Source: a virus. Taken from it: 23,729 nucleotides of DNA. Where the stretch lies: IMG/VR virus record IMGVR_UViG_3300020442_000931, positions 1-23,729 of that record. One strand, written 5' to 3'. Both the position numbers and the translations under genes were made by a program. Under the pieces are notes generated by a model. It was not told where the DNA came from. It ran no database searches and saw only the letters and a list, made by a program, of their open reading frames with translations. This document shows positions 7,301-23,729 of the stretch, in pieces. Numbering within the stretch: position 1 is the stretch's first letter; every line of letters begins with the position of its first letter.

Positions 7301-10300
7301 AGTTTTGTTGGTACTGTTGCAATTTCAGAACTTACATCTATTAAAATTGTTGGTGGTGACATCACGATTACAGGATTCTCTGCTGCTGATACACTTGGTG
7401 GTACATTCGCATCCGACTCCTTACTACCTACACAGGCATCTGTTAAGGATTATATCTCTAACAACTTAGGACCTTATCTTAACCAACCATTCTCAACTAA
7501 CGCAGTTCCATCTGCACTGGTTCAGTTAACATCAAATGGTAAGATTAACATAGATCAGATTCCTGCTCTACGTCCATTCAATATTACATCTGTTGCATCA
7601 CAGGCAGAAAGACTTGCTATTGAAGATGCTAATGCGGGTGACATCGCAATTGAGACATCTGCTACAACATTTAACGTTGCATCTTCATCTGTTAACACAG
7701 GTGCTGATAGTATTACAATTACAAATCATGGAGTTTCAACTGGAGATCAATTAACATATACAGAAGGAACATCAGCGATTGGTGGATTAGCAACAAACAA
7801 TGTTTACTATGCTATTGTAGTTGACGCAAATACAATTAGACTTGCCACTACAACGTCCAATGCAAATTCAAACTCCTATATTACATTAAGCAGTCAAGGT
7901 TCTGGTACTCATACTCTTGTAACAGCTGGTATAGCAATATCATACATTCTAGAAAATGATCTAGAAAGTCAGTTCTTATCGTTCACACCAAACAGTGCGT
8001 TCCAATTCAATGTAGGAGATATTCTTACTGGTAGTTCTACAACTGCTCGTGGTACAGTCACAGCATATAATGATGGTGCTGTATTTAACTATGTTATTAG
8101 TAGTGGTGGTTCTGGATATTCTGGAGATTTCAACCTTACAATATCTGCACCTGACGATACATCTAATGGAGTTCAAGCTGCTGCCACAGCAAAAGTAACC
8201 AGTGGTGTTGTAACTAGCGTTCAGATTACAAACCTTGGTAAGGGTTACTATAATCAACCAACAATACAGGTATTGACATCGCCTAGTGGTGCTTCTAACA
8301 ATGCAGTCATTGCTGCTCAGGTAGAAGGTAGAGTCAGTATTGATATTGCCAACAGCATCAAGTTTGATGCGGGTGACTTTATTGTAGACCAAGCATTAGC
8401 AAACCTAGCAACAGGAACTTATTCTCAAAATAATTCAACAACCATAACATTTACAGAGTCCAATCATGGTCTTGCAAATGGTGCATTACAATTCTTTGAC
8501 TTTACTACAGGTAATGCTCCTGATGGATTCTATACTATAACTCTATTAAACTCTAACCAGTTTACTATTACCTCTCCTAACTCTGCTACCACATCTGGTA
8601 ACTTTGCTAGAAAGAGAATTGTTGACCTTTCTAGAGTTGTTAATACATCCGCACAAAATGCTTCTAACTGGACTCAGTTAACATCAACAAACATTGATGC
8701 TTCTAACATTGTTGCGGGTACAATTGACCCAGAAAGAATGGCGAACAAGGGTACTGCAAACTCTTACACATTCTTACGTGGTGATTCATCATGGGAGTAT
8801 GCACTACAGTCAATTAGACCTACCACACAAGATGCTCTTCTTGTTGGTGGATCAATCACAGATAGTTCATACATTGATAGTATTACAATCATAAATGGTG
8901 GATCTGGATATACAGATGGAACCTATCAGAACATTCCAATTGAAGGTGGTAATGTTTCTGTTACCAGTCAAGATGTTGCTCGTGCAACATATATTGTATC
9001 AGGTGGTGCAATTACATCTGCCACCGTTACCGACTCTGGTACTGGTTACACCGCAACATTCTCTGTAGTCATACCAAGCGAACTTGGTTCTGGTACCAGT
9101 GCAACGTTGAGTGCTGTTAAAGGAACTATCAACCGTGCATTTGGTAACATTGAAGTTGATATAAGAAAAGGTGATAACTTAACTTCAAGTGCATCTGTTT
9201 ATGGTAACTACGGTGTATTCAAATTTAGAAAAGACGTTGCGAACCAAGCAGTTGCCAACCAGACAGAAGGTGGATTTATTATTGACAACAACGGTCAAGT
9301 AAGTATAGATCAAGGTCCTGGTTCAGAACTTAATGCTGACAGACTAGATGGTAACCAAGGTTCATATTATCAGACTGCTGATAACATTGTCTTTGGAACT
9401 CTACCCGCTGCGAGACTTGCAAATATAACATATGCAATATCCATATCTGGTACTGCTGACAAAGCAAACGTAGTCTTTAACGAGACTGCATCACTTACAT
9501 CAAACCCTGCCCCCGCACAGGCAGCAAACGGTCTTGGTGCTGCACTTAGGAATAACTCTGCTACAGCATTGAATGACGGTGGAACTACACACGGTATTCT
9601 TACATATAGAAGAGAGGCAACTGGAACTGCTTCTACTCAATTAGGATTTACAAATAACAACAACTTATACATTAGAGGTAATAGTGGTACTGCTGCTGTA
9701 TACTCTAACTGGGAGAAAATTTGGTCTTCTGGTAACGATGGTGCAGGAAGTGGTCTCGATGCTGACAAACTTGACGGTAAACAAGGTCTATGGTATCAGT
9801 CTGGTTATAACATTGGTAACCAACGTGCAGGAATTCATCCTATCGGTGACTCATTCATACCCGAAGCACTTGGTAGAGACAAGATTGTATTTGAGAACTT
9901 GTATGTTAATGACACAGGACTAAAATATACTCTATACATTCCAGACTTCCACTGTAATAGTGGTGTTGGTGGTAACATCAATAACAATGGAACATACACT
10001 ATCTACTCTGATGTTGGTGCAACAAATAACATTGGTTCTATTGTAGTTGATGCAAATGGCGTACAAGAACTTACACATGTAACTGGTGAAATATATTCAC
10101 TCGTAACTGGTACTATTAACTTTGTAGGTAGTAACACAAACTCAAACATTTACGTCTTCGGTCCTAATCCTGGCACAAAATGGACTGTAACTTCTTCTAA
10201 TGAAGTATCAGGTGGTTCATCTACTGTTATTGGATTACGTGACGCTGCAGCGGGTGCTAAGTTACAAATTGGTAAAGCATCTGTATCTACCACACCAACT

Positions 10301-11755
10301 GTAGACTTTAGATCATCAGGTCAAGCACCAAACTATGACGTTCAAATGATCGTCTCTGGTGGTAATGGTAGTAATGGAAATGGTACATTAAGATTCAATG
10401 CAGCTGATCTTACCGCTAATGGTAATACAATCTGGCATGCAGGAAACGATGGAGCATCATCACAGTTAGACGCTCACTATGTTGATGGTTATACACAGTC
10501 AACATCTGCATCAGCAAACACTCTTGCTCGTAGAGATGGATCAGGTCACTTAACAGTCAATGATTTATATGCCGATCAAGGTATATTCTCTAACACTGGT
10601 ACATCTATCTTACAGTTAGGTGATGGTAATGGTATCAACGTAGGTAAGGCAACCACTAACCAGTTATCAATTAAGGGTAGACAAGATAGTAATCAAGGTT
10701 ACATTCGTTTTGGTAATGATAGCAACTCCTTTGGTTGGAATGGTTCATACTTACAATACAATAATGTTACTTTCCGTAGTGGTCGCATAGGTATTGGCGA
10801 GACCAATCCTTTATGTCGTCTTCACTTAGATGAAGGTGGTAACACTAGTGATGGTGATGGATCAGCATCCATGACTGCAAATGGTAATGAATCAATAATG
10901 ATTCAAACTGACACAGCATTTACTGTGGGTCATACTTTAGGTTCTATAGTATGGAGAGTTGGAGGTCGTAGACGTGCGATGATTACTGGTGTTTGTGAAA
11001 ACACCGATAGTGATTTCCTAGGTTTATCATTCTTCACACAGGGAACCAACGGTCCTGGCGATTTCTTCGAGTCGTTCAGAATTGCAAGAAGTGGTAACGT
11101 GGGCGTGGGTAACTTTGGTAGTGGAGTGCCATCCTACAAACTTGATGTTAAAGGTGACATTCGTTCAACAAATACTATAAGATCAACAGTCGCACAAGGT
11201 AGTGCACCAATCGCTGTTAGTTCTACAACTGTATGTCCTAACCTTAACGCAGACTTACTTGATGGTTACAGTGCACTTAATCTTCCATACTTAGGTGCTA
11301 GTGTCAACCAATGGTTGAGTGATGATGGCGGTCAAGAAAGATTCTACTTTGCTAACAACTCATCCACATATCTTAGAACTGGAGATGACTTCTACTTTAG
11401 ATCAAATAATAATACTGGAATGGGTTCTATTAATGGTGACGGTGGTTACTGGACGATATATTCTGGTGGAGATCAAACACAGTCAACTTATAGAATGGAG
11501 ATCAGAGGATCAAATGGTCTAAATATCAATACATCATCTGTAGGTCAATCTAGCGGACAGAGATCTGTTGTTCTTCGTGCTGATGGAGACAAGCAATGGA
11601 TTGATAGATATGGTGTATTGAAGCGTAATAGAAACTCTATTGGTGAGAGCACCTCAATCAATAACGGAGACAACTGTTTAAGTTCAGGTCCTGTTACTAT
11701 AAATAACGGTGTAACTGTTACCATAAACAGTGGTGGATACTGGAGCATAGTTTAA
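1382..11755 (+). CDS. Giant mosaic tail-fibre-like protein (3457 residues)
   Basis: One uninterrupted frame; the start has a good AGGA five bases upstream (1373-1376). In order: an N-terminal beta region with 'VGVNTNDPQFELDVEG' near residue 134; a pectin-lyase-like beta-helix start at ~234-345 ('YVSQTIGLDTNDGRS', 'KTIKKAAQIA'); several 'HGxxxGD' beta modules; three alpha-helical 'CxDDV' repeats at ~1180-1620; GGxGY modules at ~2240-2315 and ~2500-2580; a linker 'IVAGTIDPERMA' near 2441; and from ~2650 to the end T4 gp37-like fibre elements: four LDADxLDG motifs, 'WHAGNDG', and 'GIGETNP' and 'YKLDVKGDIR'. It ends 'TINSGGYWSIV', with no intramolecular chaperone domain. Most likely a trimeric long-fibre or baseplate-attached protein for host contact. 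Fibre assignment is firm by motif; position in the virion is inferred. Confidence 0.9.
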   Translation: MSLKFNVDQQRIEASGSKATGNWTNATYSRTAAGVGNIVSVAHGFIGEEEIYIDFTSGGEVDGKFTVTKVDDDNLRFTGSSNSIITAGATLAYKRVRSLSIQGDETIELSVGTGALEKDAIFVNKNASENIRVGVNTNDPQFELDVEGQIRTTRSIISDTAQVTNLDIGTIVNPSLNFRAPNLVNFEDTDVTSPTFGQTFFPTADTPPLTDQSRRIATTDFVYKVATNDTGGRVYVSQTIGLDTNDGRSAARPVKTIKKAAQIAYGLQKAVPASTDEYVSIIASGGEYLEDNPISLPRNCSLIGDNLRRVIMRPLNADRHMIKASNETYINGVVFRDALQNSSDPQSTVIHTWKYAFVFDDKQRLYYEPAVRQIPAIAGDKFRGQNIFKITFNNHTGNNTTLQTGYFVQGGSSGTLGKIQSVNFTGPIASPYSTGSVIILITSGVNDVFQDAEKVFYDPVAANIITDLNNASVSNRFDVVDGESLRPELETISNQIYQHTVDSERELVTFRGSANYIDVTNDRILLTNHRYKTGDAVYYSKDENVAALPGLIDTTTYYLRVFDANNIELYDTYANAVNVSETQGRKDITGVSPDDSFHVFESGHVMPELNNIYIDNHQFTTGDGVIYRASKMGAIGGLVEGTAYFVYRENDDYIRLAASAADATQKDASGNDNPVTIDLTSAGIGFQRFDLQEKLLSITTIDTSLNTISTYNGPIFTLASSSTSSDFHDYEIGQEVEVYGFQNTSLDLGTSTNTSFSISGGQITVTVANCDNSKTGTLFANWASLTECGITFNFPAGYERFSKTYSIDGFSTGSGTPTLASNTDLGIGIARYNSSNLTATFVLNQPNIPTASDVTSGSGSGVSLLDNLASLNGRKYITHRIERADGYSLQFVIRGNISQIGTAINPTGNQSVVGSNNYVLASLRNSPYGFTKINQADRFKDGAEAIKANQEFIAQEAVAYVKYYYESSATRSSALTIGGTNFGQAADTIAKNITSWSVSGDELTIISQRGHNLYPNFTQHTPTNASYTPASGLLQVTLTGHGFSNGDLIKFDAGALVFSSSTSPIIPAASDPAFDKWLKISNKTNDTFEVTVGTSSDTSSHTFVSAGTNSLKRALTTVTIANSGNSTVNGTHGIKDIYDDRKFVLDLTDNSANGQTGTAGTFTDLQKPFRTPNSIPQDNKYADAAELLFGNADMIADYAVNKMLAANSGYTIPTGSTACYDDVRDFIQKCVSHNLKWGGNDRVYDQAKFYIDPGFSLTRDRYVEVFNNAKDACILAARNLPIYRYNGSSSAGTSKLQYYHTLTLDTAAQTVSGYAATLILKNLDLIAFESVQRYNVDNPAHNVPGGNQNCIDDVSDFLRAVVYNLNHGGNEQVYDHSQLYTSSTFLDGEETESRAVFQIAKAIAKQACASETITIEGNHGFTQVTNSSLKGTTVEQNLVDGFFTMLDTAIANDNMSHATRTVATNPSCTNVISAITTFFSTVTTALGSGSTAGSVSGVTRTSAPGDQQCIDDVMKICRAFQFDLRYGGNSAIVEAANLYINSGAIQYLDNEVQYSRAMFAAAKELSIDALRNNLEVGQFSQIAPVSNGSVTVDSSKPECANVVSALTTNWGILDNVLSSGTAYSGAVTNPDPVITEQDQNKYSFPLGNVFLDLPVIEASPYIQNSSLISFLGGSGCEIDGAKVATPNVPRPGLKQNAQGNTVAQFDPQGKSMVANAFTIICFGGTAYNISNDGYTQLVSVFAIFCQDGILVQSGGYASVTNSASNFGTFSLRASGFRAEAYSFDIGVIDSITEDVDGNGTPTGRQVIQVSGTTLTNIPIEDYIIKIDGHRSSDTSIEHIILETEVVSGAPGTAIVAKIKTNRAMDFTNTSNGNRYQSTNDPSFVSGSLALSNLVGLGIKFHRPSICNSSSHTWEYAGSGNTYAALPQNGGFGLGTAFEAAEQEFGQVYTSGTNEFGDFKVGNFVTIFNRTGAISFVGTVAISELTSIKIVGGDITITGFSAADTLGGTFASDSLLPTQASVKDYISNNLGPYLNQPFSTNAVPSALVQLTSNGKINIDQIPALRPFNITSVASQAERLAIEDANAGDIAIETSATTFNVASSSVNTGADSITITNHGVSTGDQLTYTEGTSAIGGLATNNVYYAIVVDANTIRLATTTSNANSNSYITLSSQGSGTHTLVTAGIAISYILENDLESQFLSFTPNSAFQFNVGDILTGSSTTARGTVTAYNDGAVFNYVISSGGSGYSGDFNLTISAPDDTSNGVQAAATAKVTSGVVTSVQITNLGKGYYNQPTIQVLTSPSGASNNAVIAAQVEGRVSIDIANSIKFDAGDFIVDQALANLATGTYSQNNSTTITFTESNHGLANGALQFFDFTTGNAPDGFYTITLLNSNQFTITSPNSATTSGNFARKRIVDLSRVVNTSAQNASNWTQLTSTNIDASNIVAGTIDPERMANKGTANSYTFLRGDSSWEYALQSIRPTTQDALLVGGSITDSSYIDSITIINGGSGYTDGTYQNIPIEGGNVSVTSQDVARATYIVSGGAITSATVTDSGTGYTATFSVVIPSELGSGTSATLSAVKGTINRAFGNIEVDIRKGDNLTSSASVYGNYGVFKFRKDVANQAVANQTEGGFIIDNNGQVSIDQGPGSELNADRLDGNQGSYYQTADNIVFGTLPAARLANITYAISISGTADKANVVFNETASLTSNPAPAQAANGLGAALRNNSATALNDGGTTHGILTYRREATGTASTQLGFTNNNNLYIRGNSGTAAVYSNWEKIWSSGNDGAGSGLDADKLDGKQGLWYQSGYNIGNQRAGIHPIGDSFIPEALGRDKIVFENLYVNDTGLKYTLYIPDFHCNSGVGGNINNNGTYTIYSDVGATNNIGSIVVDANGVQELTHVTGEIYSLVTGTINFVGSNTNSNIYVFGPNPGTKWTVTSSNEVSGGSSTVIGLRDAAAGAKLQIGKASVSTTPTVDFRSSGQAPNYDVQMIVSGGNGSNGNGTLRFNAADLTANGNTIWHAGNDGASSQLDAHYVDGYTQSTSASANTLARRDGSGHLTVNDLYADQGIFSNTGTSILQLGDGNGINVGKATTNQLSIKGRQDSNQGYIRFGNDSNSFGWNGSYLQYNNVTFRSGRIGIGETNPLCRLHLDEGGNTSDGDGSASMTANGNESIMIQTDTAFTVGHTLGSIVWRVGGRRRAMITGVCENTDSDFLGLSFFTQGTNGPGDFFESFRIARSGNVGVGNFGSGVPSYKLDVKGDIRSTNTIRSTVAQGSAPIAVSSTTVCPNLNADLLDGYSALNLPYLGASVNQWLSDDGGQERFYFANNSSTYLRTGDDFYFRSNNNTGMGSINGDGGYWTIYSGGDQTQSTYRMEIRGSNGLNINTSSVGQSSGQRSVVLRADGDKQWIDRYGVLKRNRNSIGESTSINNGDNCLSSGPVTINNGVTVTINSGGYWSIV
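1505..8580 (+). repeat. Dispersed 'HGxxxGD' beta modules inside the giant fibre gene (about six copies)
   Basis: Protein-level repeat family. Approximate copies: 1505-1625 ('AHGFIGEEEIYI'), 2960-3110 ('NHRYKTGDAVYY'), 3226-3350 ('NHQFTTGDGVIY'), 4498-4660 ('GHGFSNGDLIKF'), 7720-7860 ('NHGVSTGDQLTY') and 8462-8580 ('NHGLANGALQFF'). Each begins with His then a Gly-Asp-type turn. In several a 'TYYLRV/NNVYYAIV' strand and a 'DANNIELY/DANTIRLA' strand follow after 20-35 residues. Copies are diverged, so they are old duplications rather than recent DNA repeats. Confidence 0.65.
4919..6238 (+). repeat. Three helical 'CxDDV' repeats inside the giant fibre gene
   Basis: Three protein repeats centred on Cys-x-Asp-Asp-Val at residues 1219, 1350 and 1509 (DNA 5036, 5429 and 5906). 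Each continues as a helix, then a Gly-Gly-Asn turn ('LKWGGNDRVYD', 'LNHGGNEQVYD', 'LRYGGNSAIVE'), then a Tyr-rich strand and another Ala-rich helix. Unlike the rest of the fibre they look mainly alpha-helical. Unit spacing is 131 and 159 residues; the outer limits given are approximate. Confidence 0.75.
8092..9117 (+). repeat. GGxGY beta-modules in the giant fibre gene
   Basis: Two protein-level blocks of Gly-rich beta modules, at about 8092-8331 ('SSGGSGYSG', then 'NLGKGYYNQP') and about 8875-9117 ('INGGSGYTDG', then 'DSGTGYTATF'). A weaker relative occurs in the truncated gene at about 163-235, which suggests module exchange between neighbouring virion genes. Confidence 0.55.
9329..11269 (+). 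repeat. LDADxLDG tail-fibre repeats in the giant fibre gene
   Basis: Four copies of the phage fibre motif: 'LNADRLDGNQGSYYQ' (DNA 9329, residue 2650), 'LDADKLDGKQGLWYQ' (9755, residue 2792), 'LDAHYVDGYTQST' (10466, residue 3029) and 'LNADLLDGYSALN' (11243, residue 3288). They are interspersed with 'SSGNDGAGSG' and 'WHAGNDGASS' elements. These are hallmarks of T4 gp37 and lambda Stf-type fibre shafts. Confidence 0.85.
11698..11705 (+). promoter_or_regulatory. T4-type late promoter TATAAATA inside the 3' end of the giant gene
   Basis: Exact octamer match, 57 nt before the ATG at 11763 and still within the coding sequence of the giant fibre gene. If active it would let the adhesin-like gene and those behind it be transcribed independently of the 10-kb gene ahead. 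The match could be chance, since here the octamer is also constrained by protein coding. Confidence 0.5.
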
Positions 11756-11762
11756 ACTAATC

Positions 11763-12518
11763 ATGGCAGGAATTTTAAGAGTAGACCAAATTCAGAGTAC
11801 AGCTGGAGCAAACGTAATTGATGTTTCCTCTGGTGCTTTTAAAATTTGGAATGGAAGTTCATACCAGAACTTCACTGTAAGTGGTGCTTTACTTAGCATC
11901 AACACTTACACGTCACAGAATGGTACTTGGAACTCTAAATCAACTTCTGGTGGATCTGGAGTATGGAGTAAACCATCTGGTTGCAATCACGTTTTAGTGT
12001 ATGTGACTGGTGGTGGCGGTGGAGCAAGAGTTAATGACAACTCTTATCGTGGTGCAGGAGGCGGTGGCGGTGCTACTGCTATCAGATATATTGATGTATC
12101 TAACGTTAGCTCTGTCAACTACACATATGGTGGTGGAGGAGGATATTCTCGTAACGGTGGTAGAGGAGCGACTGGAGGAACTTCATCCTTTGGTTCTTAT
12201 GTAACTGCTACTGGCGGTCAGGGTGGACAAACCGATAACCCATATCAGGGAGGTCCTGGTGGAAATGCCTCTGGTGGTGATATCAACATACCTGGCGGTG
12301 GTGGTGAAATGGCACACGGAGCAGATAGAGAAGGTGGCGGTGGATCATCATTCTGGCATAAAGCAGGATCATCACACCATTATGCTAACAACCAAGAAGA
12401 GATTACTCACGGTCAGTGGGGATCTGGAGGAGGTTATGGTTACTACTCACAAAACGGTTATGGACACAATAACTCAAACGGTGGTGCAGGAGCTGTTATC
12501 GTTTACAACTACACTTAA
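11763..12518 (+). CDS. Glycine-rich distal tail fibre / adhesin-like protein
   Basis: 251 residues, starting 7 bases after the giant fibre stop. The N-terminus 'MAGILRVDQIQS' and following ~60 residues look like a fibre-attachment segment. From about residue 65 a strand pair around 'WSKPSGCNHVLVYVTGGGG' opens a glycine-rich domain: about eight runs of Gly3-Gly5 separated by short polar or aromatic loops ('GAGGGGGA', 'YGGGGGY', 'IPGGGGEM', 'REGGGGSS'), ending in a strand 'GGAGAVIVYNYT'. The layout resembles polyglycine-II adhesin tips such as the S16 gp38 type, where Gly strands pack as a sandwich and the loops between them bind receptor. Position straight after a long fibre fits a receptor-binding tip. 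The resemblance is by pattern, not a confirmed homology. Confidence 0.8.
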   Translation: MAGILRVDQIQSTAGANVIDVSSGAFKIWNGSSYQNFTVSGALLSINTYTSQNGTWNSKSTSGGSGVWSKPSGCNHVLVYVTGGGGGARVNDNSYRGAGGGGGATAIRYIDVSNVSSVNYTYGGGGGYSRNGGRGATGGTSSFGSYVTATGGQGGQTDNPYQGGPGGNASGGDINIPGGGGEMAHGADREGGGGSSFWHKAGSSHHYANNQEEITHGQWGSGGGYGYYSQNGYGHNNSNGGAGAVIVYNYT

Positions 12519-15334: not shown

Positions 15335-16094
15335 GAAGAGTTGGATAGAACTTTCGTATAAACTAGAAGGTGGACAGACCAAATATCAAAACCAGAATTT
15401 TGTAGTTGGGACACAGATAACACCATTTAAAAAAGTACAGCAAGCATTGCTAGAACTACAGTCTAGAGATAACACTAGAGTGGAGTTGCAGTATCGTCTT
15501 GATAAAAATGCTATTGATATTAAAAAACTCAATAGACAATTAAAACTAGCAACTGATCCTTTAGATAAGGAGATGATTGAAGTTGAGATTGAGAAAGCAC
15601 ACTATGATAGAACTATCTGGGAGCAGAAAGTTACAGTTTGCAAAAGAGAGATTGCAAACTTTACAGGTCAGTTAGAAGAGTTGGTAGACAAAGCTAAAGG
15701 AGTAGAGTATTATCTAGATACCAATGAGGAGGAAGATAAGAAATATTGGATCAGTCGTATGGCAAAACAAGCTGCTTGCGATATGATTTCTTTCGGACAT
15801 GTTGGTACTGGTAACATGGATTCTATTATGAATCTACCTCCTGACGATCAGATTCAAGTATTGTCAGGTGCGGTTCATCACTCTGCTTTAATTGGAGCAG
15901 GAGTCGAAAAAATGAGACAACAGATGAGTGGATCTGTTGCTAATATATTAGAGGGTGGTAAATTTAATCCACCACAAATTAATGGTTCTGAAATTTTACA
16001 ACCAGAGGAAAATTCTCCTCAATTACCTGAAGTGAAACATGACATCCCCAAAGAAAAAATCCGTCTTCAGTCTTCCAATAAATCCAAAGATTGA
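15315..16094 (+). CDS. Coiled-coil phage protein, function unknown
   Basis: 259 residues; the ATG has a GGAG at 15302-15305 and lies 20 bases inside the previous gene. Residues ~35-130 form a long helical region of Leu/Ile/Val heptads and charged residues ('VQQALLELQSRDNTRVELQY', 'LNRQLKLATD'), ending at 'NFTGQLEELVDKAKG'. Residues ~140-205 are a second helical block ('YWISRMAKQAACDMISFG', 'DDQIQVLSGAVHHSALIGAG'). The last ~50 residues are Pro/Asn/Gln-rich and probably disordered. The 3' 56 bases also encode the start of the next gene, so the tail is under double coding constraint. It has no recognised motif; a scaffold, chaperone or baseplate component is conceivable. Confidence 0.8.
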   Translation: MELSDSEKSWIELSYKLEGGQTKYQNQNFVVGTQITPFKKVQQALLELQSRDNTRVELQYRLDKNAIDIKKLNRQLKLATDPLDKEMIEVEIEKAHYDRTIWEQKVTVCKREIANFTGQLEELVDKAKGVEYYLDTNEEEDKKYWISRMAKQAACDMISFGHVGTGNMDSIMNLPPDDQIQVLSGAVHHSALIGAGVEKMRQQMSGSVANILEGGKFNPPQINGSEILQPEENSPQLPEVKHDIPKEKIRLQSSNKSKD

Positions 16095-17820
16095 TTCAAG
16101 ATATGCTGAGGAAGTTTTTATTCCTTGGTTGAATAGGTATAAAGAATATATTGTTGATTTGTATTTTACATGTCGAATGCCACCTTTCGTGCAAGATGCG
16201 ATGGGTGATGTTTTTCAAGGAGATGCAGTTCAATTATTTTATAACGCACAATCTATACATCAACAAACTGGTATTCCATTATCTGCCACGTTTAATAACC
16301 TTTACGTAAGACCAGATTTAGAACACTTAGATTTGTTTGTGAGAAATTTTAGACAGATATATGAGGTGGGTGTAAAGATAGTGACTATACCTCATACGAG
16401 TTGGGTTGCTACAGGTATTTTACAAAAAGAATTTCCAGATTTAAAAATAAAAAATACAATACTTAGAAATGTAAGTAGAGCAAATGAGATAGTTTCTCTT
16501 GCTGAAGCAGGATTTCATTACATCAATCTAGATAGAGATTTGATGCGTGATAGGGATACTCTATTAAAGATAAAGAAAGCAAAAGAATTTTGTGCTTCTA
16601 TTGGTAAACCTGTAGAATTATCCATTCTAACCAATGAGGGTTGTTGGGGTGGTTGTTCTATGATGGATGAACACTACCATTTTAATAGCACTAGAACTAA
16701 AGATAATCCACAATACTTTATGGATCCTATTAGTACAAACTCTTGTGCTAAATGGGACATAGAAGATAACTCTCATGCTTTAAAAGCAGCAAATTTACCA
16801 CCATGGAAATCTGATTGGAATGAGTTTCTTGATCTAGGTATTGATGTCTTTAAAATGCATGGTAGAGAAAATGCCATGAAACTTAAAGAGTCTATGGATA
16901 TTGTTGCTGCGTGGGGAAATGATAGCGTAGAAGTAATGTTTTCAGACTTTAACAAATACATGGATGATCTTTCTGTAAAAGAAAGACCCATAGATGTCTG
17001 GAGAGAAAAAATTAAGACTTGTAGTTTTGATTGTTGGGACTGCAATTACTGTGAGACTGTGGTTAACACTCATCTTAAGAAACAAGATAGACCTGTAGAG
17101 GTTGATAACTACGTGCAGAGAGTATTGTCTGCTATCGACGATGGTATGACAGGAAGTTCAAATTTCAATAACGATCAGTTTGAACCTTCTACAATGTCTT
17201 TGTCTTCTGATAGAATTAGACATTTTTTAAATAGTCTCTGTTCTCATGATGATGCAGTATACCTCGAAGTTGGAACTTATGTTGGTGGCACATTCTTTGC
17301 TGCCACTATGAATAACAATGTTAAATGTTTTGGTGTAGATGATTTTTCAGAAGCAAATGTAAAACCTTTGACAAATAATATAAGATGGCAAGACTGTGGT
17401 AATCCCTATGATGTATTTGTTAATTACTGGGAAAGATATGAAAATGGTAATGCTGCCTTTATAAAATCACCAGTCTCCGAACTTACACAGGATGACTTTG
17501 ATGCAAAACCCAACATCTTGTTTTATGATGCAGATCATGATATGATGGAACAGATGAATAATCTAAATCATTTGTTGCCTTTCATGGACGACCAGTTTAT
17601 ACTAGTTGTTGATGATGCTAACTTTGATGGTGTTGTTGAAGGAACAATGCAATTTATCGAAGAAAACCAATTAGAGATATTCTTTGAAAGAAGAGTACTT
17701 AGCGGGGTAATTGAAAATCCTACACATTGGTGGAACGGTATACATATTCTTGTTCTGAGAAAAGATACAATGGTAAAAAATTATTTCGGTAGTAATAGAG
17801 ACGCATCTCAAATCGCATGA
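16039..17820 (+). CDS. Fusion of a U32-like (Fe-S type) TIM-barrel-like domain with a class I SAM methyltransferase
   Basis: 593 residues. The ATG lies 56 bases inside the previous gene; no later in-frame ATG precedes the conserved region (next Met is residue 47). Residues ~20-345 resemble the U32 'peptidase' superfamily (relatives of UbiU/UbiV, RlhA, TrhP): alternating beta/alpha units, 'LSATFNNLYV', then 'TNEGCWGGCSMMDEHYHF' with Cys202, Cys206, His212 and His214, Cys236, and a cluster Cys328-x3-Cys332-x2-Cys335-x2-Cys338, well placed for an Fe-S cluster. Residues ~395-580 are a Rossmann methyltransferase: motif I 'YLEVGTYVGG' (Glu410, Gly412, Gly416), an acidic strand end 'GVDDF' (434-435), 'FYDADHD' (495-501) and a C-terminal 'WWNGIHILVLRK'. 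It precedes the oxygenase gene with an ATGA overlap. Methyltransferase call is strong; U32 relationship is moderate; substrate unknown. Confidence 0.75.
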   Translation: MTSPKKKSVFSLPINPKIDSRYAEEVFIPWLNRYKEYIVDLYFTCRMPPFVQDAMGDVFQGDAVQLFYNAQSIHQQTGIPLSATFNNLYVRPDLEHLDLFVRNFRQIYEVGVKIVTIPHTSWVATGILQKEFPDLKIKNTILRNVSRANEIVSLAEAGFHYINLDRDLMRDRDTLLKIKKAKEFCASIGKPVELSILTNEGCWGGCSMMDEHYHFNSTRTKDNPQYFMDPISTNSCAKWDIEDNSHALKAANLPPWKSDWNEFLDLGIDVFKMHGRENAMKLKESMDIVAAWGNDSVEVMFSDFNKYMDDLSVKERPIDVWREKIKTCSFDCWDCNYCETVVNTHLKKQDRPVEVDNYVQRVLSAIDDGMTGSSNFNNDQFEPSTMSLSSDRIRHFLNSLCSHDDAVYLEVGTYVGGTFFAATMNNNVKCFGVDDFSEANVKPLTNNIRWQDCGNPYDVFVNYWERYENGNAAFIKSPVSELTQDDFDAKPNILFYDADHDMMEQMNNLNHLLPFMDDQFILVVDDANFDGVVEGTMQFIEENQLEIFFERRVLSGVIENPTHWWNGIHILVLRKDTMVKNYFGSNRDASQIA

Positions 17821-18527
17821 AACTTATTGACCCAAAAATACTAAATTCATTACACCCAAAAGATTGGGATGTGGAACAGTTGCATATAGGTAAAGCAAAA
17901 AATAGAGTTATAAAAATAAAAAACTTTTTTGTTAACCCAGAGCAAGTCAGAGCATACGCTATGGCAGCAGATTACGTATCCACTGTGAATGGTGAGTTTT
18001 CTAATTTGCCAGGTTATGTTTGTAGATTGGGACATGTATCTAATCAATTACTACCACAGTTTAGATTCATATTGTCAAATTATTTTGAAGCATCAAAAGA
18101 TGCAATGAAGCATCCACAAGATTCTCATTTTACATTTCAAATGTATGAGGTGCAAGAAAAGTGTAGGATGTGTAGTTTAACTCCCCATACAGATGACACA
18201 CATTATGCTGCTGTGCTATCATTAAACTATGATGAAGAAATGGAGGATACTGACAACGGTACTGCATTTTGGAGACATGTAGAATATGATGAAGAGTTTG
18301 TTTCTTCAGATAAAAACTACAGAATAGAAAGGGTTGTTAACAAAACAAATGCTTTTGTTAACTTTGACCCATCAAAATATAAAACTAAAAGTTGGGAAAA
18401 GTATCATGTAGTTCCACATGAATTTAACACTCTTGTAATTTACGAGGGTAGATGTTGGCATTCGCCATACTTCAAACAGGATGGTTGGGAAACAAACCGA
18501 CTAACCTTCAATGCATTTTTGCACTAA
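17817..18527 (+). CDS. 2OG-Fe(II) oxygenase-like protein (DUF6445-like)
   Basis: 236 residues; the ATG overlaps the previous stop by 4 bases (ATGA), so the two enzymes are probably co-translated. The double-stranded beta-helix signature is complete: 'TPHTDDTHYAAVLSLN' supplies His124-x-Asp126, 'NGTAFWRH' is the typical following strand, 'FNTLVIYEGRCWHSPYF' supplies the distal His215, and 'NRLTFNAFLH' supplies Arg228 for the 2-oxoglutarate carboxylate. The order and the GTAF-RH / WHS / RLT-N-F pattern match what I recall of DUF6445. Such proteins hydroxylate small molecules, nucleic acids or protein side chains. The substrate is not evident; adjacency to the U32-methyltransferase fusion and to fibre genes suggests joint modification of a shared target. 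Confidence 0.8.
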   Translation: MKLIDPKILNSLHPKDWDVEQLHIGKAKNRVIKIKNFFVNPEQVRAYAMAADYVSTVNGEFSNLPGYVCRLGHVSNQLLPQFRFILSNYFEASKDAMKHPQDSHFTFQMYEVQEKCRMCSLTPHTDDTHYAAVLSLNYDEEMEDTDNGTAFWRHVEYDEEFVSSDKNYRIERVVNKTNAFVNFDPSKYKTKSWEKYHVVPHEFNTLVIYEGRCWHSPYFKQDGWETNRLTFNAFLH

Positions 18528-18737: not shown

Positions 18738-19050
18738 TGCTAGGAAACTAGAACACGTAGCATCAAGACAAAATAAAGTTATATTTGATGGTACAACCGA
18801 GACATGTCCCTATCAAGTAGGTGACTTGTACGATGGTAGAGAGATCATATCAATAGGATTTGCCGAGAATGTATATGGTAAGTCCTATCATATTATAGTG
18901 GAAAGAAACAAAACTCACCTTAGAACTAAGTTTGAATTTGATGAGAAGCATGACCTAAAGTTCACAAAACCAGTTGAACGAATGATTGCTCCTGTAAGAG
19001 AACCAGAGATAAACAGACTATTAGCAAAAGCAACTGACGCAACTTCATAA
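18709..19050 (+). CDS. Small mixed alpha/beta protein, function unknown
   Basis: 113 residues, starting at the ATG 29 bases inside the previous gene in another frame; no later start precedes the folded part. Residues ~22-90 look like a compact beta-barrel: 'NKVIFDGTTETCPYQVGDLY', 'REIISIGFAENVYGKSYHII', 'HLRTKFEFDEKHDLKF'. The C-terminus is helical and basic. The 'YQVGDLYDGREIISIGF' turn resembles an SH3-like or OB-like start, but this is weak. Its stop codon lies inside a CATAAATA late promoter element for the next gene. Confidence 0.7.
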   Translation: MKRKTFPSSDARKLEHVASRQNKVIFDGTTETCPYQVGDLYDGREIISIGFAENVYGKSYHIIVERNKTHLRTKFEFDEKHDLKFTKPVERMIAPVREPEINRLLAKATDATS

Positions 19051-19053
19051 ATA
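19046..19053 (+). promoter_or_regulatory. Late promoter CATAAATA
   Basis: Matches the NATAAATA form of the T4-like late promoter that I recall from cyanophages. It overlaps the previous stop codon and lies 27 nt before the ATG at 19081, in the same stop-codon-overlap arrangement as at 803-810. It would give the subtilase gene its own late transcript. Confidence 0.65.
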
Positions 19054-19080
19054 CATCTGAAGGACTTATTGTACCAATAG

Positions 19081-22000
19081 ATGAAGAGGGTAGTAGTAAG
19101 GGTCAGCGATAACTATAATCTAGATCAAGCTGCTTCAGCGATCTTGAAATTATATGGTTACCTATCCTTTGTAGAATCTTTTAGAACTTTTTCAATCATA
19201 ACATTTGATTGTCCTGAGAGATATGAAAACGTAATTTTAAATCAATTAAGAGCTCTTAATGTAGTAAAGAGAGCGACTTGGGATGGAGATAAATTCTCAT
19301 GCAATCCAGTATATGAGTCAGAGTTAACACACTCTACAAGTGGTAGTATCACATTAAATTCTGTTGGAGAGACAACTACTACAGCAAATACTAGAAACTT
19401 AACTGGATCTGGTACAGGTACAATATATGTAAAAGTTCAGAACATAGGTGGTAGTAATTTCTATGTGTTCTCTCAAACACAAGGAGGAAGTTACAGTAGG
19501 TTTGCTAACCAAACAGGATTCTTACAAGGTGCTACATACACCTTCGATCAGAGCGATTCATCTAACGCTACTCATCAATTAGTATTTTCAGAAACACCTG
19601 ACGGGACACATACTACTGGAGGATCAGCATATACTACAGGTGTAACTACAACAGGAACTGCAGGGCAAGCTGGTGCACAGGTTGAAATAACCATGGGTGC
19701 AACAACTCCATCTGTTCTATACTTCTATTGTAATATGCATTCTGGTATGGGTAGATATCAGGTTACTCCCGATAGATATGGAACAATTAATTTACATGAC
19801 TATTGGCATTTAGATAGAATTACAAAACAAGACAGGCAATATTTAAACAGACAGTTTAGTTATACTCAAGATGGTGATGGTGCTGACATTTATGTAATTG
19901 ATACTGGAGTTCGTGGTGCAAGCAGACCAACTGGTAACAACGCAGCACTCCACTCAGAACTATACAACCCAGACTATGTTGCTGACCTCAACGGTACTAC
20001 AGAACAACAGAACTACAGAGTATTTCAGTTAGCAAACTATGCAGGTGCACATGGGACGAACAATGAAGATGATAACGGACATGGAACTTACTGTGCTATT
20101 TTGTCGGCTGGGAGACTAGCTGGAGTTGCAAGGAAAGCAAAGGTATATGCACTTAAGGCATTTAATAGCAGTTTAACTGCATCTTATACCGATATACTTG
20201 GTGCATATCAAGCAGTTATAGATCATAACGATAGTGGTAACGCTAATTACAAAGGTAATAATCGTCCAGCTATCATCAACGCATCTTTCGGACCTACAAT
20301 ACCTACACAGAACTATCCATATATTGAATTAAATGATACGGGAGATGATACGGGAACTGATGAAGAGATTTTAGATGATATTGAAGGAACAATATCTAGT
20401 CAAAAAAATCTTATCATAGTTAGATCAGCTGGTAATGGTTTTAAAAATAGTAGTGATAATTTTGCAGGACCTATACAAGGAAAGTGCATTGCGGGTACAA
20501 GAACTGCAGGATATCCTGATAACACTAATGGTGGTATAAACAACGTAGATGCAAATCAAAATAAAGTATCTGTTGGTGCAACTGAATACAATGACAGATG
20601 GGCTGACTTCTCAAACTATGGTGCGGGTGTAACTACAACTGCACCTGGTGCAAGGATACTAGTGCCACAGTATGATTGGTTAGCAAATACTCCACAGACA
20701 AGTGCAACTAACTATACAACTATAGGTGGAACATCTTTCTCAGCACCTTTAGTCACAGGTATAGCAGCTGCATGGTGTGGTGCAAACGGATATACTTTAA
20801 CTACAAATAATTTACCTGGCACATTCAAAACTTACATGAGAACTCCTGATGCTACGGGAGACATAAGGAAAGGTGGATCTACATACTATCCTACAAATAG
20901 TATAGAAGATAGAAAGTTAATTGATAATCCATATGAAACTAACAATGGATCTGACTTCTTAATTGTAAAATTCAATCCTGCTGATGCTTCTCATTTCTTA
21001 GGTAATGTTGGTAAAAAAGTACAACTTAGAACCACAGGATCAACAGCGGGATCTGGTTCTTCTACACCAACAACGTATAATATTACAGTTACAGCACCAA
21101 GTTCTGCTTATTACACATTAAACGGAACTGATAGAAATGGTTCAGTTAGTGGTAACAACGCAAGTATAACAGTTAATGTTGGAGACACAATAAATTTAAA
21201 CTTATCTAACGTATCAACTATCCACCCAACTTATTTTAGAGACTCAAGTAATGGTCCTAACGTAAGCACTCCTGCTGCAACAGGACAAGGTGGCACAGGA
21301 AACTCTGTTGTATCATGGACACCAAATCAAGTAGGATCATACATCTATCAGTGTAGTGCTCACTTAGGAATGATGGGTACTATTACCGTCAACAGTGCAT
21401 CAGGTGGAGCTGGTAGTGTTGTAGTTGGTGGTATCAATGTTTCTGCTCTATCACAGTCTGGTTGGTTAAACATTGCAGCAGAAAGTGCAGTTAACAATAC
21501 AATTACGGTACAGAATAGTTCTAATGCTACTGCAAGCACAACAGGTGGTGGATCAAATAATTATCTCGCACTGATAAAATCAGAAGCAATAACACATGAA
21601 AGTATTGATGGTGTGGTATCTACATCAACATCATTAAGATCACAGACAGATACACAGGAAGCTGGTGGTAGCGGACAGTACTCAAACGTAGCATACTATC
21701 CCGTTGATTCAGGTGTTGATTTTGACTATTCAGGAACTGGGTCTACACTCACTAAGAAACGTGGTGCATTCTTCTCATATATTGATACTAGTGTAACATG
21801 GACTACAAGTTCTGGTGCATTAAATGGTAGTCCTTACGCTGATGGTGCAAGTGTTAGTGTTCAGTTGGGATTAACAGGACAGACATTTGCATCTGAACCA
21901 ACATTTGAAGCATATACGATTAGTGGAGATGGTATAGGTGCATCTGGATTGACATTCAATACTGCAACAGGTGAGTTGTCTGGAACTGTAACATCAGATT

Positions 22001-23729
22001 ATCTTGATACAACGTTCAACTTTACAGTTACTGAGAACGTGACTGGTAATGCACGTGCATATTCATTTACTACAACAGGAACTGGTGTTCTAATAACTGT
22101 TACAGGAAACCCTGTATCTACAAGTATAGAAGCTGGTGCAAACGTCAACGCTACTTTCGGTCCTGTTGCTGCTACAAGTTCTGATGGATCTACAATACTA
22201 TACCAGTGGGAGTTTTCTAGTAACGGTGGTGTAGGTTGGTCTGATGTAATTAACGGTGGTTTTTATAGTGGTGCAACTTCAGCAACATTACAAGTAGATG
22301 ATGAATATTCACTTAATGCTTATCAATACAGATGTAAGATGGAAACGTCTACATCTATTGCACCAGGCACAACAACTGCTGCAACACTGACTGTATTCCG
22401 TGTAATAACAATAGATACGCAACCATCAAATGCACAACCCATGGCTCCTGCTGCAGCTGCATTTACCACTGCTGCTAGTACTAAAGATGGAGCAGCAATA
22501 ACCTACCAATGGCAGTCATCACAAAACGGTGATGGTGTAACATATGCTGATATAAATGGTGCTACTTCTACAACTTATACAACTGGCAGCACATCTTATG
22601 ACAATGATTACGGTGACTACTACAGATGTAAGGTAAATGCAACGGGTGCTGCTGAGGTAATTACAAACGCAGGAAGAAACCTAGTACAACGTAGTATAAA
22701 TGTAACATCACAACCAGCTAACGTAACTGGTGCTGTTGGTGGTACAGTTTCGTTTGGTGTTGCTGCAAATACATCTGATAATGATGCAGGAGATATAACA
22801 TATCAGTGGGAAGTATCTATTACATCTGGTGCCTCATGGTCTAACGTATCTGAAGGAACTGGTGGTACAACCTCAACTTACACAACTCCTACATTAACTA
22901 CAGCATACGACTCATACCAATATCGTTGTTTATTATCAGCAAATGGTGCAACAACTATACCTTCTAATGCTGCTACATTACAAGTTGAAACGGTAACAGT
23001 AGTTGTATCAAATCAACCAAGTAATGCATCAGTTAACGAAGGTGCTACAGCGACATTTACTACATTAGGTGGAGTATCAATGGCACCTGTGGGTGGTAAC
23101 GCTGCTTCATCTTCATTTGAAGTAGATCAGTTTGATACACCTAGCAGTGGTGGAGGTAATGCTGAGGGACAATCTCAACACGAACCTAGTGTTACATATC
23201 AGTGGGAAAAAACTGACGATGGTAATAGAACTGTTGTTGTGACTGTAGGAACTGATACAAATAACGGACAAGCAACAGGGGTATTTTATCTTGACGGTGT
23301 AGAAGCACCCGCATCCTTCCCTCTTAAGAGGGGAGCAACATATTTGTTCGATCAGAATGATGCATCAAATGCTAACTGGAATAATCAAGCTCATCCAATA
23401 ATGTTTAGCACCACTGTAGATGGAGATTTAGTACCAGGCGGAGCTCACTATGATCCTTCAACTACAGTCTACAGATTAGATGGTGTTATCAAAACCATGG
23501 CAGAATATACTAGTGGTTTTGCTAGTGCTACCACTAAGACCGTACATTTTACACCTCCAGCTAATGCACCCGCAACCCTTTACTATTGGTGCCATTTCCA
23601 TACAGGTCAAGGTAATAGTTTAGCTCTTACAGATCAGACATGGAATTCACTTGGTGGTGCAACTTCTGCATCATATACAACTGCAGCAACAACTTATGCT
23701 GACGATCACCAAGACAAGTATCGCTGTAA
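19081..23729 (+). CDS. Giant subtilisin (S8) protease with cupredoxin-like and Ig-like domains, 3' end outside window
   Basis: An open frame of 1549 residues with no stop before the last base; the final 'gtaa' is out of frame (…Arg-Cys-aa). A TAG directly precedes the ATG, so the start is fixed. In order: residues 3-72, beta-alpha-beta-beta-alpha-beta like an I9 propeptide; ~100-230, cupredoxin-like (His165, Cys217-x2-His220-x2-Met223); ~235-640, proteinase-K-like S8 domain with 'YVIDTGVRG' Asp274, 'DNGHGTYCA' His334, 'SAGNG' oxyanion Asn452 and 'GGTSFSAP' Ser552; ~662-776, cupredoxin 2 (His715, Cys758-x2-His761, Met764); ~935-1000, cadherin-like (He_PIG) domain; then Ig-like repeats from ~1003, the last split by cupredoxin 3. 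No evident signal peptide. The catalytic set is complete, so an active protease is likely. Virion location is inferred from the Ig/fibre build and late promoter. Confidence 0.9.
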   Translation, partial: MKRVVVRVSDNYNLDQAASAILKLYGYLSFVESFRTFSIITFDCPERYENVILNQLRALNVVKRATWDGDKFSCNPVYESELTHSTSGSITLNSVGETTTTANTRNLTGSGTGTIYVKVQNIGGSNFYVFSQTQGGSYSRFANQTGFLQGATYTFDQSDSSNATHQLVFSETPDGTHTTGGSAYTTGVTTTGTAGQAGAQVEITMGATTPSVLYFYCNMHSGMGRYQVTPDRYGTINLHDYWHLDRITKQDRQYLNRQFSYTQDGDGADIYVIDTGVRGASRPTGNNAALHSELYNPDYVADLNGTTEQQNYRVFQLANYAGAHGTNNEDDNGHGTYCAILSAGRLAGVARKAKVYALKAFNSSLTASYTDILGAYQAVIDHNDSGNANYKGNNRPAIINASFGPTIPTQNYPYIELNDTGDDTGTDEEILDDIEGTISSQKNLIIVRSAGNGFKNSSDNFAGPIQGKCIAGTRTAGYPDNTNGGINNVDANQNKVSVGATEYNDRWADFSNYGAGVTTTAPGARILVPQYDWLANTPQTSATNYTTIGGTSFSAPLVTGIAAAWCGANGYTLTTNNLPGTFKTYMRTPDATGDIRKGGSTYYPTNSIEDRKLIDNPYETNNGSDFLIVKFNPADASHFLGNVGKKVQLRTTGSTAGSGSSTPTTYNITVTAPSSAYYTLNGTDRNGSVSGNNASITVNVGDTINLNLSNVSTIHPTYFRDSSNGPNVSTPAATGQGGTGNSVVSWTPNQVGSYIYQCSAHLGMMGTITVNSASGGAGSVVVGGINVSALSQSGWLNIAAESAVNNTITVQNSSNATASTTGGGSNNYLALIKSEAITHESIDGVVSTSTSLRSQTDTQEAGGSGQYSNVAYYPVDSGVDFDYSGTGSTLTKKRGAFFSYIDTSVTWTTSSGALNGSPYADGASVSVQLGLTGQTFASEPTFEAYTISGDGIGASGLTFNTATGELSGTVTSDYLDTTFNFTVTENVTGNARAYSFTTTGTGVLITVTGNPVSTSIEAGANVNATFGPVAATSSDGSTILYQWEFSSNGGVGWSDVINGGFYSGATSATLQVDDEYSLNAYQYRCKMETSTSIAPGTTTAATLTVFRVITIDTQPSNAQPMAPAAAAFTTAASTKDGAAITYQWQSSQNGDGVTYADINGATSTTYTTGSTSYDNDYGDYYRCKVNATGAAEVITNAGRNLVQRSINVTSQPANVTGAVGGTVSFGVAANTSDNDAGDITYQWEVSITSGASWSNVSEGTGGTTSTYTTPTLTTAYDSYQYRCLLSANGATTIPSNAATLQVETVTVVVSNQPSNASVNEGATATFTTLGGVSMAPVGGNAASSSFEVDQFDTPSSGGGNAEGQSQHEPSVTYQWEKTDDGNRTVVVTVGTDTNNGQATGVFYLDGVEAPASFPLKRGATYLFDQNDASNANWNNQAHPIMFSTTVDGDLVPGGAHYDPSTTVYRLDGVIKTMAEYTSGFASATTKTVHFTPPANAPATLYYWCHFHTGQGNSLALTDQTWNSLGGATSASYTTAATTYADDHQDKYRC
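19378..19770 (+). other. Cupredoxin-like domain 1, between propeptide and protease
   Basis: Beta-rich domain with 'GATYTFDQSDSSNATHQLVF' and 'VLYFYCNMHSGMGRYQV'. His165, Cys217, His220 and Met223 match the His-Cys-His-Met ligand set of blue copper proteins (C-x2-H as in plastocyanin, shorter gap to Met). It sits where proteinase K-type enzymes have only a short link between propeptide and catalytic domain. Copper binding is plausible, not shown. Confidence 0.65.
19783..21000 (+). other. Peptidase S8 (proteinase K-like) catalytic domain
   Basis: Residues ~235-640. It opens like proteinase K with 'WHLDRI' followed by 'FSYTQDGDGADIYVIDTG'. Asp274, His334 and Ser552 form the triad in the usual order and spacing; Asn452 supplies the oxyanion hole. 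'VSVGATEYNDRWADFSNYG' and 'APGARILVP' are the standard strands between Asn and Ser. Confidence 0.92.
21064..21408 (+). other. Cupredoxin-like domain 2
   Basis: Residues ~662-776: 'ITVNVGDTINLNLSNVSTIH' supplies His715, and 'GSYIYQCSAHLGMMGTITV' supplies Cys758, His761 and Met764 or Met765. The C-x2-H-x2-M end and 'GTITV' last strand are the plastocyanin-like pattern. It differs from domains 1 and 3, which share a 'GATYxFDQxDxSNA' strand. Confidence 0.7.
22087..23727 (+). repeat. Ig-like repeat array of about 100 residues per unit
   Basis: At least four units share 'QPxN…GA…F', a central 'YQW', a 'W…GAT…YTT' segment and an end 'YxYRC'. YQW positions: 22201 ('YQWEFSSN'), 22504 ('YQWQSSQN'), 22801 ('YQWEVSIT'), 23197 ('YQWEKTDD'). 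YRC ends: about 22327, 22621, 22921 and 23719. The Trp and Cys fit an I-set-like sandwich, though the partner Cys of a classical Ig fold is missing. The array runs off the window. Confidence 0.75.
23230..23640 (+). other. Cupredoxin-like domain 3, inserted in an Ig-like repeat
   Basis: Residues ~1384-1520 lie between the 'YQWEKTDD' and 'WNSLGGATSASYTT' parts of one Ig unit. 'GATYLFDQNDASNA' matches domain 1, followed by His1438 and 'LYYWCHFHTGQG' with Cys1504 and His1507. The position of the usual Met is Gln1510, as in stellacyanin-type copper centres. Confidence 0.7.

Follow-up and report, generated by a model that had tools for sequence, protein, structure and literature searches.

The 23,729-nucleotide virus record IMGVR_UViG_3300020442_000931 (IMG/VR), which we analyzed over its entire length and refer to as the window, encodes a giant modular protein in which a subtilisin-type S8 protease domain shares one chain with three cupredoxin domains and an array of Ig-like repeats. 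The S8 enzyme adds a new sequence to an already recorded family; its coupling to copper-type domains and the insertion of domains inside other domains look new. Within the literature searched, drawn mostly from outside the subscription journals, we found no functional study of a cyanophage S8 protease and no paper on cupredoxins of cyanophages or phage tails or on plastocyanin-like phage domains, and the coupling of S8 and cupredoxin in phage structural proteins appears undescribed so far. The source is best explained as a T4-like Prochlorococcus phage of the Eurybiavirus group in which the S8 gene is a late structural gene.

Table 1. Features of the giant S8-cupredoxin-Ig protein and its upstream region (positions in the window)
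Feature	Residues	Position	Strand	Basis or remark
T4-late-type promoter motif CATAAATA		19046..19053	+	28 bases before start codon
Giant S8-cupredoxin-Ig protein		19081..23727	+	1549 aa in window, 3' end missing (~410 aa)
Propeptide-like domain	1-75	19081..19305	+	AlphaFold2 pLDDT about 72-89
Cupredoxin 1	111-232	19411..19776	+	ligands H165, C217, H220, M223; own profile, ligand conservation
S8 subtilase domain	238-590	19792..20850	+	Pfam, solved relatives, invariant residues, model
Catalytic codons	D274, H334, N452, S552	19900-19902, 20080-20082, 20434-20436, 20734-20736	+	
Cupredoxin 2	664-772	21070..21396	+	ligands H715, C758, H761, M764
Ig-like repeats 1-3 and first half of repeat 4	~1005-1382	22093..23226	+	
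Cupredoxin 3 with flanks	~1383-1519	23227..23637	+	H1438, C1504, H1507, Q1510; inside Ig repeat 4
Second half of Ig repeat 4		23638..23727	+	cut by the window's end

The reading frame stays open up to the edge of the window with no stop codon. Orthologs of the same architecture end at ≈1962 to 1970 amino acids, so about 410 residues of the protein lie beyond the window. Dozens of orthologs likewise carry a single uninterrupted frame, which rules out a chance open reading frame, a frameshift, or an assembly artifact. One orthologous contig (L064) has the gene split into two frames of 1037 and 716 amino acids, reflecting a frameshift or an assembly error. By direct reading, the start of the protein, MKRVVVRVSDNYNLD, has no hydrophobic segment and no signal peptide is seen.

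The preliminary description of this DNA, made from its letters, had read a stop-free frame, a full S8 catalytic set in a proteinase-K-like enzyme, three cupredoxin-like domains, an Ig array, and a late promoter of the gene's own, and each of these readings was upheld by the comparisons that follow. A Pfam search, one of the checks it had proposed, matched the S8 profile PF00082 at residues 266 to 575 (E = 3.1e-26; 92.8 bits versus a cut-off of 21.8). Asp274, His334, Asn452, and Ser552 are invariant in every ortholog that covers them (75–76 sequences) and also in 90 aligned phage S8 domains, at identities down to 18%; with the Asp-His-Ser order and the oxyanion Asn in a PF00082 fold, the domain belongs to peptidase family S8. 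From alignment to enzymes of known structure alone, Asp274, His334, and Ser552 are predicted to come together in one active site. An AlphaFold2 model of the domain by itself, computed with 90 diverse sequences (pTM 0.71; core pLDDT 80–93), superposes on the proteinase-K-like structure 2b6n with a Z score of 29.2 and an rmsd of 3.0 over 252 residues, and PCSK9 is also among its fold matches. An earlier model spanning residues 1 to 780, computed with 33 close orthologs, gave pLDDT values of only about 21 to 47 in the S8 part. By a simple counting method applied to pairs with dS of 0.15 to 1.2, dN/dS is lowest in the S8 domain (0.148), compared with 0.26 in the propeptide, 0.24 to 0.38 in the cupredoxins, 0.24 in the Ig part, and 0.59 in the linker. 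This constraint, the strongest in the protein, together with the invariant catalytic set, argues for a working enzyme, and we predict that the domain is proteolytic.

AlphaFold2 predicts with fair confidence that residues 1 to 75 follow the β-α-β-β-α-β topology of I9 propeptides, and this segment sits at a propeptide's usual place, except that cupredoxin 1 intervenes before the enzyme. We therefore describe the N terminus as a predicted I9-like propeptide fold. The I9 profile PF05922 had no Pfam match in the giant protein at E values up to 1, and a propeptide profile searched against solved structures returned no meaningful relative. In a second clade of cyanophage S8 proteins, the starting stretch resembles, by reading, a typical I9 propeptide.

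The three cupredoxins are assigned to the type-1 class by fold or profile similarity and by their His, Cys, and His ligands, with cupredoxins 1 and 2 having the full H...C-x2-H-x2-M copper set including the axial Met. Cupredoxin 3, whose domain proper spans residues ≈1396 to 1519, has an axial Gln, as do 13 of the 16 sequences compared, the other 3 having Met. All four ligands of cupredoxin 2 are kept in each of the 56 to 57 orthologs that cover it. Those of cupredoxin 1 are kept except in one clade of nine (L005, L006, L007, L012, L017, L023, L047, L057, and L062), in which Cys is replaced by Asn and His by Thr jointly while the other two ligands remain; because this clade has lost two ligands, the copper site of cupredoxin 1 is dispensable, and the clade offers a natural apo version for comparison. 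Counting every arrangement, the His plus C-x2-H-x2-M set is present in 175 of 190 distinct phage copies; Gln replaces Met in 7, and 8 are incomplete.

A profile built from 40 copies placed plastocyanins first among solved structures, with the copper ligands aligned (E = 6e-07 for the Prochlorothrix plastocyanin); the underlying alignment (A4) contains neither the Cys-to-Asn clade nor any third cupredoxin, and the invariance of its ligands is in part a product of that selection. By itself, the window protein falls below Pfam's cupredoxin cut-off (18.2 versus 21.2). The cupredoxin 2 model matches the N-terminal domain of a nitrite reductase, also a cupredoxin, with a Z score of 11.3 and an rmsd of 2.5 over 100 residues. 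Weak structural matches in BFVD (E = 4e-4 to 8e-4) link the model to β-sandwich proteins of giant viruses, namely A0A481YVH3 (Marseillevirus LCMAC201) and A0A481Z7Q7 (Pithovirus LCPAC304). The cupredoxins have kept the residues of type-1 copper sites and most likely bind copper.

The Ig-like repeats, which we defined by repeat spacing and comparison of orthologs, match phrog_613 and PDB 9ncf_S. In orthologs that lack cupredoxin 3, the fourth repeat is unbroken and reads, for example, VTYQWEKSDDGGGAWASVGGATSASYTT (contig L024). The window protein has VTYQWEKTDDGN, then ≈137 residues holding cupredoxin 3, and then TWNSLGGATSASYTT. In Synechococcus phage S-BM3, as in three contigs related to it, it is the S8 domain that houses a cupredoxin. 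Phage S8 proteins thus carry cupredoxins between the propeptide and the enzyme, after the enzyme, inside the S8 domain, and inside the Ig array.

A cupredoxin occurs in the same protein as S8 in about half of the phage species (counted from an S8-only query plus Eurybiavirus and S-BM3); among the fetched contigs the figure is 152 of 163 S8 frames, a number inflated by the queries used. In the S8 tree, absence of the cupredoxin requires at least four changes, and the pairing appears, by these sequence counts, to be frequent and not obligatory. Selection for this pairing in particular cannot be claimed, because cupredoxins are common in neighboring structural genes. They are found in gp9-type baseplate proteins and in tail fibers of many cyanophages, and their presence in the former makes the cupredoxin a wider feature of cyanophage particles. 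The gp9-type genes with cupredoxin-like stretches (hits H68–H100 and H150–H181) are annotated as baseplate wedge tail fiber connectors. In P-SSM2 and Sf-CH5, a cupredoxin-free S8 gene is directly followed by a tail-fiber gene with one or two cupredoxins (L167, 9377–12661, and L172, 9299–12892, respectively), and contig L109 (862–3934) has an S8 frame followed by five consecutive cupredoxin matches. A search of one cyanobacterial genome, a scope too small to be informative, did not find the cupredoxin.

The whole protein has orthologs in cultured phages. It matches phrog_27200 with 2399 bits over residues 1 to 1401 and is orthologous along its whole length, at 64 to 70% identity, to PHM2_106 of P-HM2 (ADO99884.1, T4-GC 519) and to proteins of P-HM1 and MED4-213; full-length similarity and gene place identify it as a member of the T4-GC 519/phrog_27200 family. 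These three orthologs share the S8 domain, cupredoxins 1 and 2, the Ig array, and the promoter motif with the window protein, differ in lacking cupredoxin 3, and are annotated as hypothetical. Further orthologs are found in ≈80 marine viral contigs. The remark in the preliminary description that no characterized T4-like tail protein has this architecture needs qualifying: none has apparently been characterized, but full-length orthologs exist in the three cultured phages.

The family also has a history in the literature. Among 70 genes exclusive to P-HM1 and P-HM2, Sullivan et al. (2010; PMC3037559) listed an S8 peptidase (T4-GC518), and they suggested that genes of this kind may play a part in infecting MED4. 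The P-HM2 record GU075905 assigns the S8 gene to T4-GC 519 and a 111-amino acid protein to 518, so the number in that paper is probably a slip. Annotations as S8, subtilisin, or peptidase are also found in P-SSM2, S-H9-1, S-WAM2, S-H38, S-CREM1, Sf-FR1, and S-BM3.

By profile matches, the window opens with a baseplate wedge gene (1–807), a 3457-amino acid protein of a tail-fiber family (1382–11755), and a member of a tail-fiber-assembly family (11763–12518), and the S8 gene lies within this run of structural genes. The run also includes a borderline methyltransferase match at 16039 to 17820 (Methyltransf_24; 25.5 bits versus 26.3) and a DUF6445 protein at 17817 to 18527. In P-HM2 and MED4-213, the S8 gene stands directly before gp13, which encodes a neck protein, with a gap of 1 base in P-HM2; gp13 would fall outside the window, and the comparison of gene place rests on the upstream side, where two small genes agree in size and order with those of both phages. 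Given the adjacent neck gene in P-HM2, and an Ig part that matches Hoc-like and head-decoration families as well as tail families, the label "tail protein" used in the preliminary description is not borne out.

The motif [A/C]TAAATA is present in all 41 distinct ortholog upstream regions, at 32 to 36 bases ahead of the start codon, whereas the sequence farther upstream varies. It is not over-represented across the window (4 found versus 8.1 expected), and a scan for the σ70 promoter consensus did no better than shuffled sequences. The conserved motif agrees with late expression of the S8 gene. A GAAGGA element (19059–19064), ≈16 bases before the start and conserved in nearly all orthologs, is too distant for a usual ribosome-binding site.

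S8 relatives always lie among structural genes, adjoining tail-fiber or baseplate genes. One of them, gene 228 of S-SCSM1 (1411 amino acids, with S8 in its N-terminal part), was labeled "(virion protein)" by its depositors. Because this label, carried by 48 S-SCSM1 genes, is missing from others that are plainly structural, it most likely records detection by mass spectrometry; 45 proteins were detected by this method in CsCl-purified S-SCSM1 particles (PMC9602691). This evidence belongs to the other S8 clade, and we found no Eurybiavirus virion proteome in the literature; by analogy, the window protein is probably virion-borne.

The preliminary description had offered three functions for the protease, of which digestion of host surface proteins appears to fit best, with maturation of virion proteins and action inside the cell ranked lower. 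We give about an even chance to a virion-displayed, zymogen-type protease whose role at adsorption is to trim the surface proteins of the host. The giant protein would be carried on the exterior of the particle. Its small N-terminal domain would fold first and plug the active site of the proteinase-K-type enzyme, keeping it inactive while particles are assembled in the host cytoplasm; such a domain is what would be expected of a latent enzyme. Autocleavage or exposure would then activate the protease, which the Ig-rich C-terminal half would anchor to the particle, and during adsorption it would trim proteins on the surface of the host cell. The cupredoxins would be mobile β-sandwich modules, most likely copper-binding, with a role as stable spacers or binding modules. 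A stronger role for the metal, in which working blue-copper domains would be loaded with copper on leaving the reducing cytoplasm and their copper state would control folding, activation, or host contact, making a copper-responsive virion protease, seems unlikely to us. Some S8 genes have no cupredoxin, which means that copper is not needed for the S8 enzyme in general.

Among the alternatives, the one with the most in its favor, though we would still bet against it, is that S8 cuts phage structural proteins in the cell during assembly of the tail or neck and is present on the particle incidentally. The late-type promoter and the position directly before gp13 suit such a role, and phages do use maturation proteases, for example T4 gp21. 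Yet gp21, the usual maturation protease, is encoded a few genes downstream in P-HM2, and related phages have S8 only sporadically and at varying places, which does not resemble a core assembly step; a secreted-type S8 enzyme with a propeptide would also be odd for a cytoplasmic one. S8 enzymes remove their own propeptides, and the enzyme here is located within the first third of a long chain of modules, so it might cut only that chain, freeing the N-terminal part or exposing an Ig-cupredoxin fiber. A full proteinase-K-like fold under strong constraint speaks against so limited a task, as do several short relatives that consist of the enzyme alone and offer little to cleave, and we consider self-processing alone rather improbable. 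Virions can carry enzymes that act in the cell, but a giant chain built from numerous rigid Ig and cupredoxin domains is unlikely to pass the tail tube and no release signal was seen; delivery into the host, or release at lysis, to act on host proteins is accordingly judged a long shot. Least probable of all is a pseudoenzyme that keeps the S8 fold as a binding platform. PCSK9, an S8 protein that acts mainly by binding, gives this idea a precedent and is among the fold matches, but all four catalytic and oxyanion residues are invariant in 90 sequences, and the strongest purifying selection of any domain falls on S8.

Proteases on phage particles that are directed at surface proteins of the host have received little attention, and the phages considered here infect Prochlorococcus, which outnumbers all other small phototrophs in the open ocean. 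With the gene present in the cultured phages P-HM1, P-HM2, and MED4-213, whose host is Prochlorococcus MED4, protease activity, virion content, and copper are directly measurable. Ig-like domains are the known example of mobile modules on phage surfaces; cupredoxins, which retain their copper ligands in positions between, behind, and within other domains, would extend that set by a domain with a metal site.

Aqualysin I and proteinase K, of the proteinase K subfamily of S8, are the closest solved relatives of the enzyme by sequence and fold (≈24–30% identity); they are secreted cellular enzymes with the propeptide directly before the enzyme and neither a cupredoxin nor an Ig part. A scan of bacterial genomes found, among the matches listed, S8 relatives at ≈28% identity over the domain and no window-type cupredoxin in any of 83 bacterial S8 frames, and the S8 tree neither supports nor rejects a single group of all phage S8 domains. 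Cyanophages hold two S8 clades, both adjoining structural genes. The window protein falls with the "peptidase S8" SBM3_00202 of S-BM3 (100/100 support), which is ≈41% identical in S8 and differs in its length of 2648 amino acids, its cupredoxin within the S8 domain, and its YHYH domain. The two share a C-terminal stretch of 229 amino acids at 44% identity and not the middle, a pattern that an attachment or assembly module would be expected to show. The second clade (S-CAM4, ACG-2014j, S-H9-1, S-RSM4, P-SSM2, S-SCSM1, S-H38, and others) has the same catalytic set, an I9-like start, and structural neighbors, and several members have a C-terminal cupredoxin; it is separate (100/99) at ≈20% identity in S8, its proteins are mostly 550 to 690 amino acids long, the short forms lack the Ig array, and several members lack a cupredoxin. 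The phage cupredoxins align with plastocyanin at the copper ligands and differ from it in sitting in structural proteins and in their C-x2-H-x2-M spacing, which is that of amicyanin and not the x4 of plastocyanin, with copper binding predicted.
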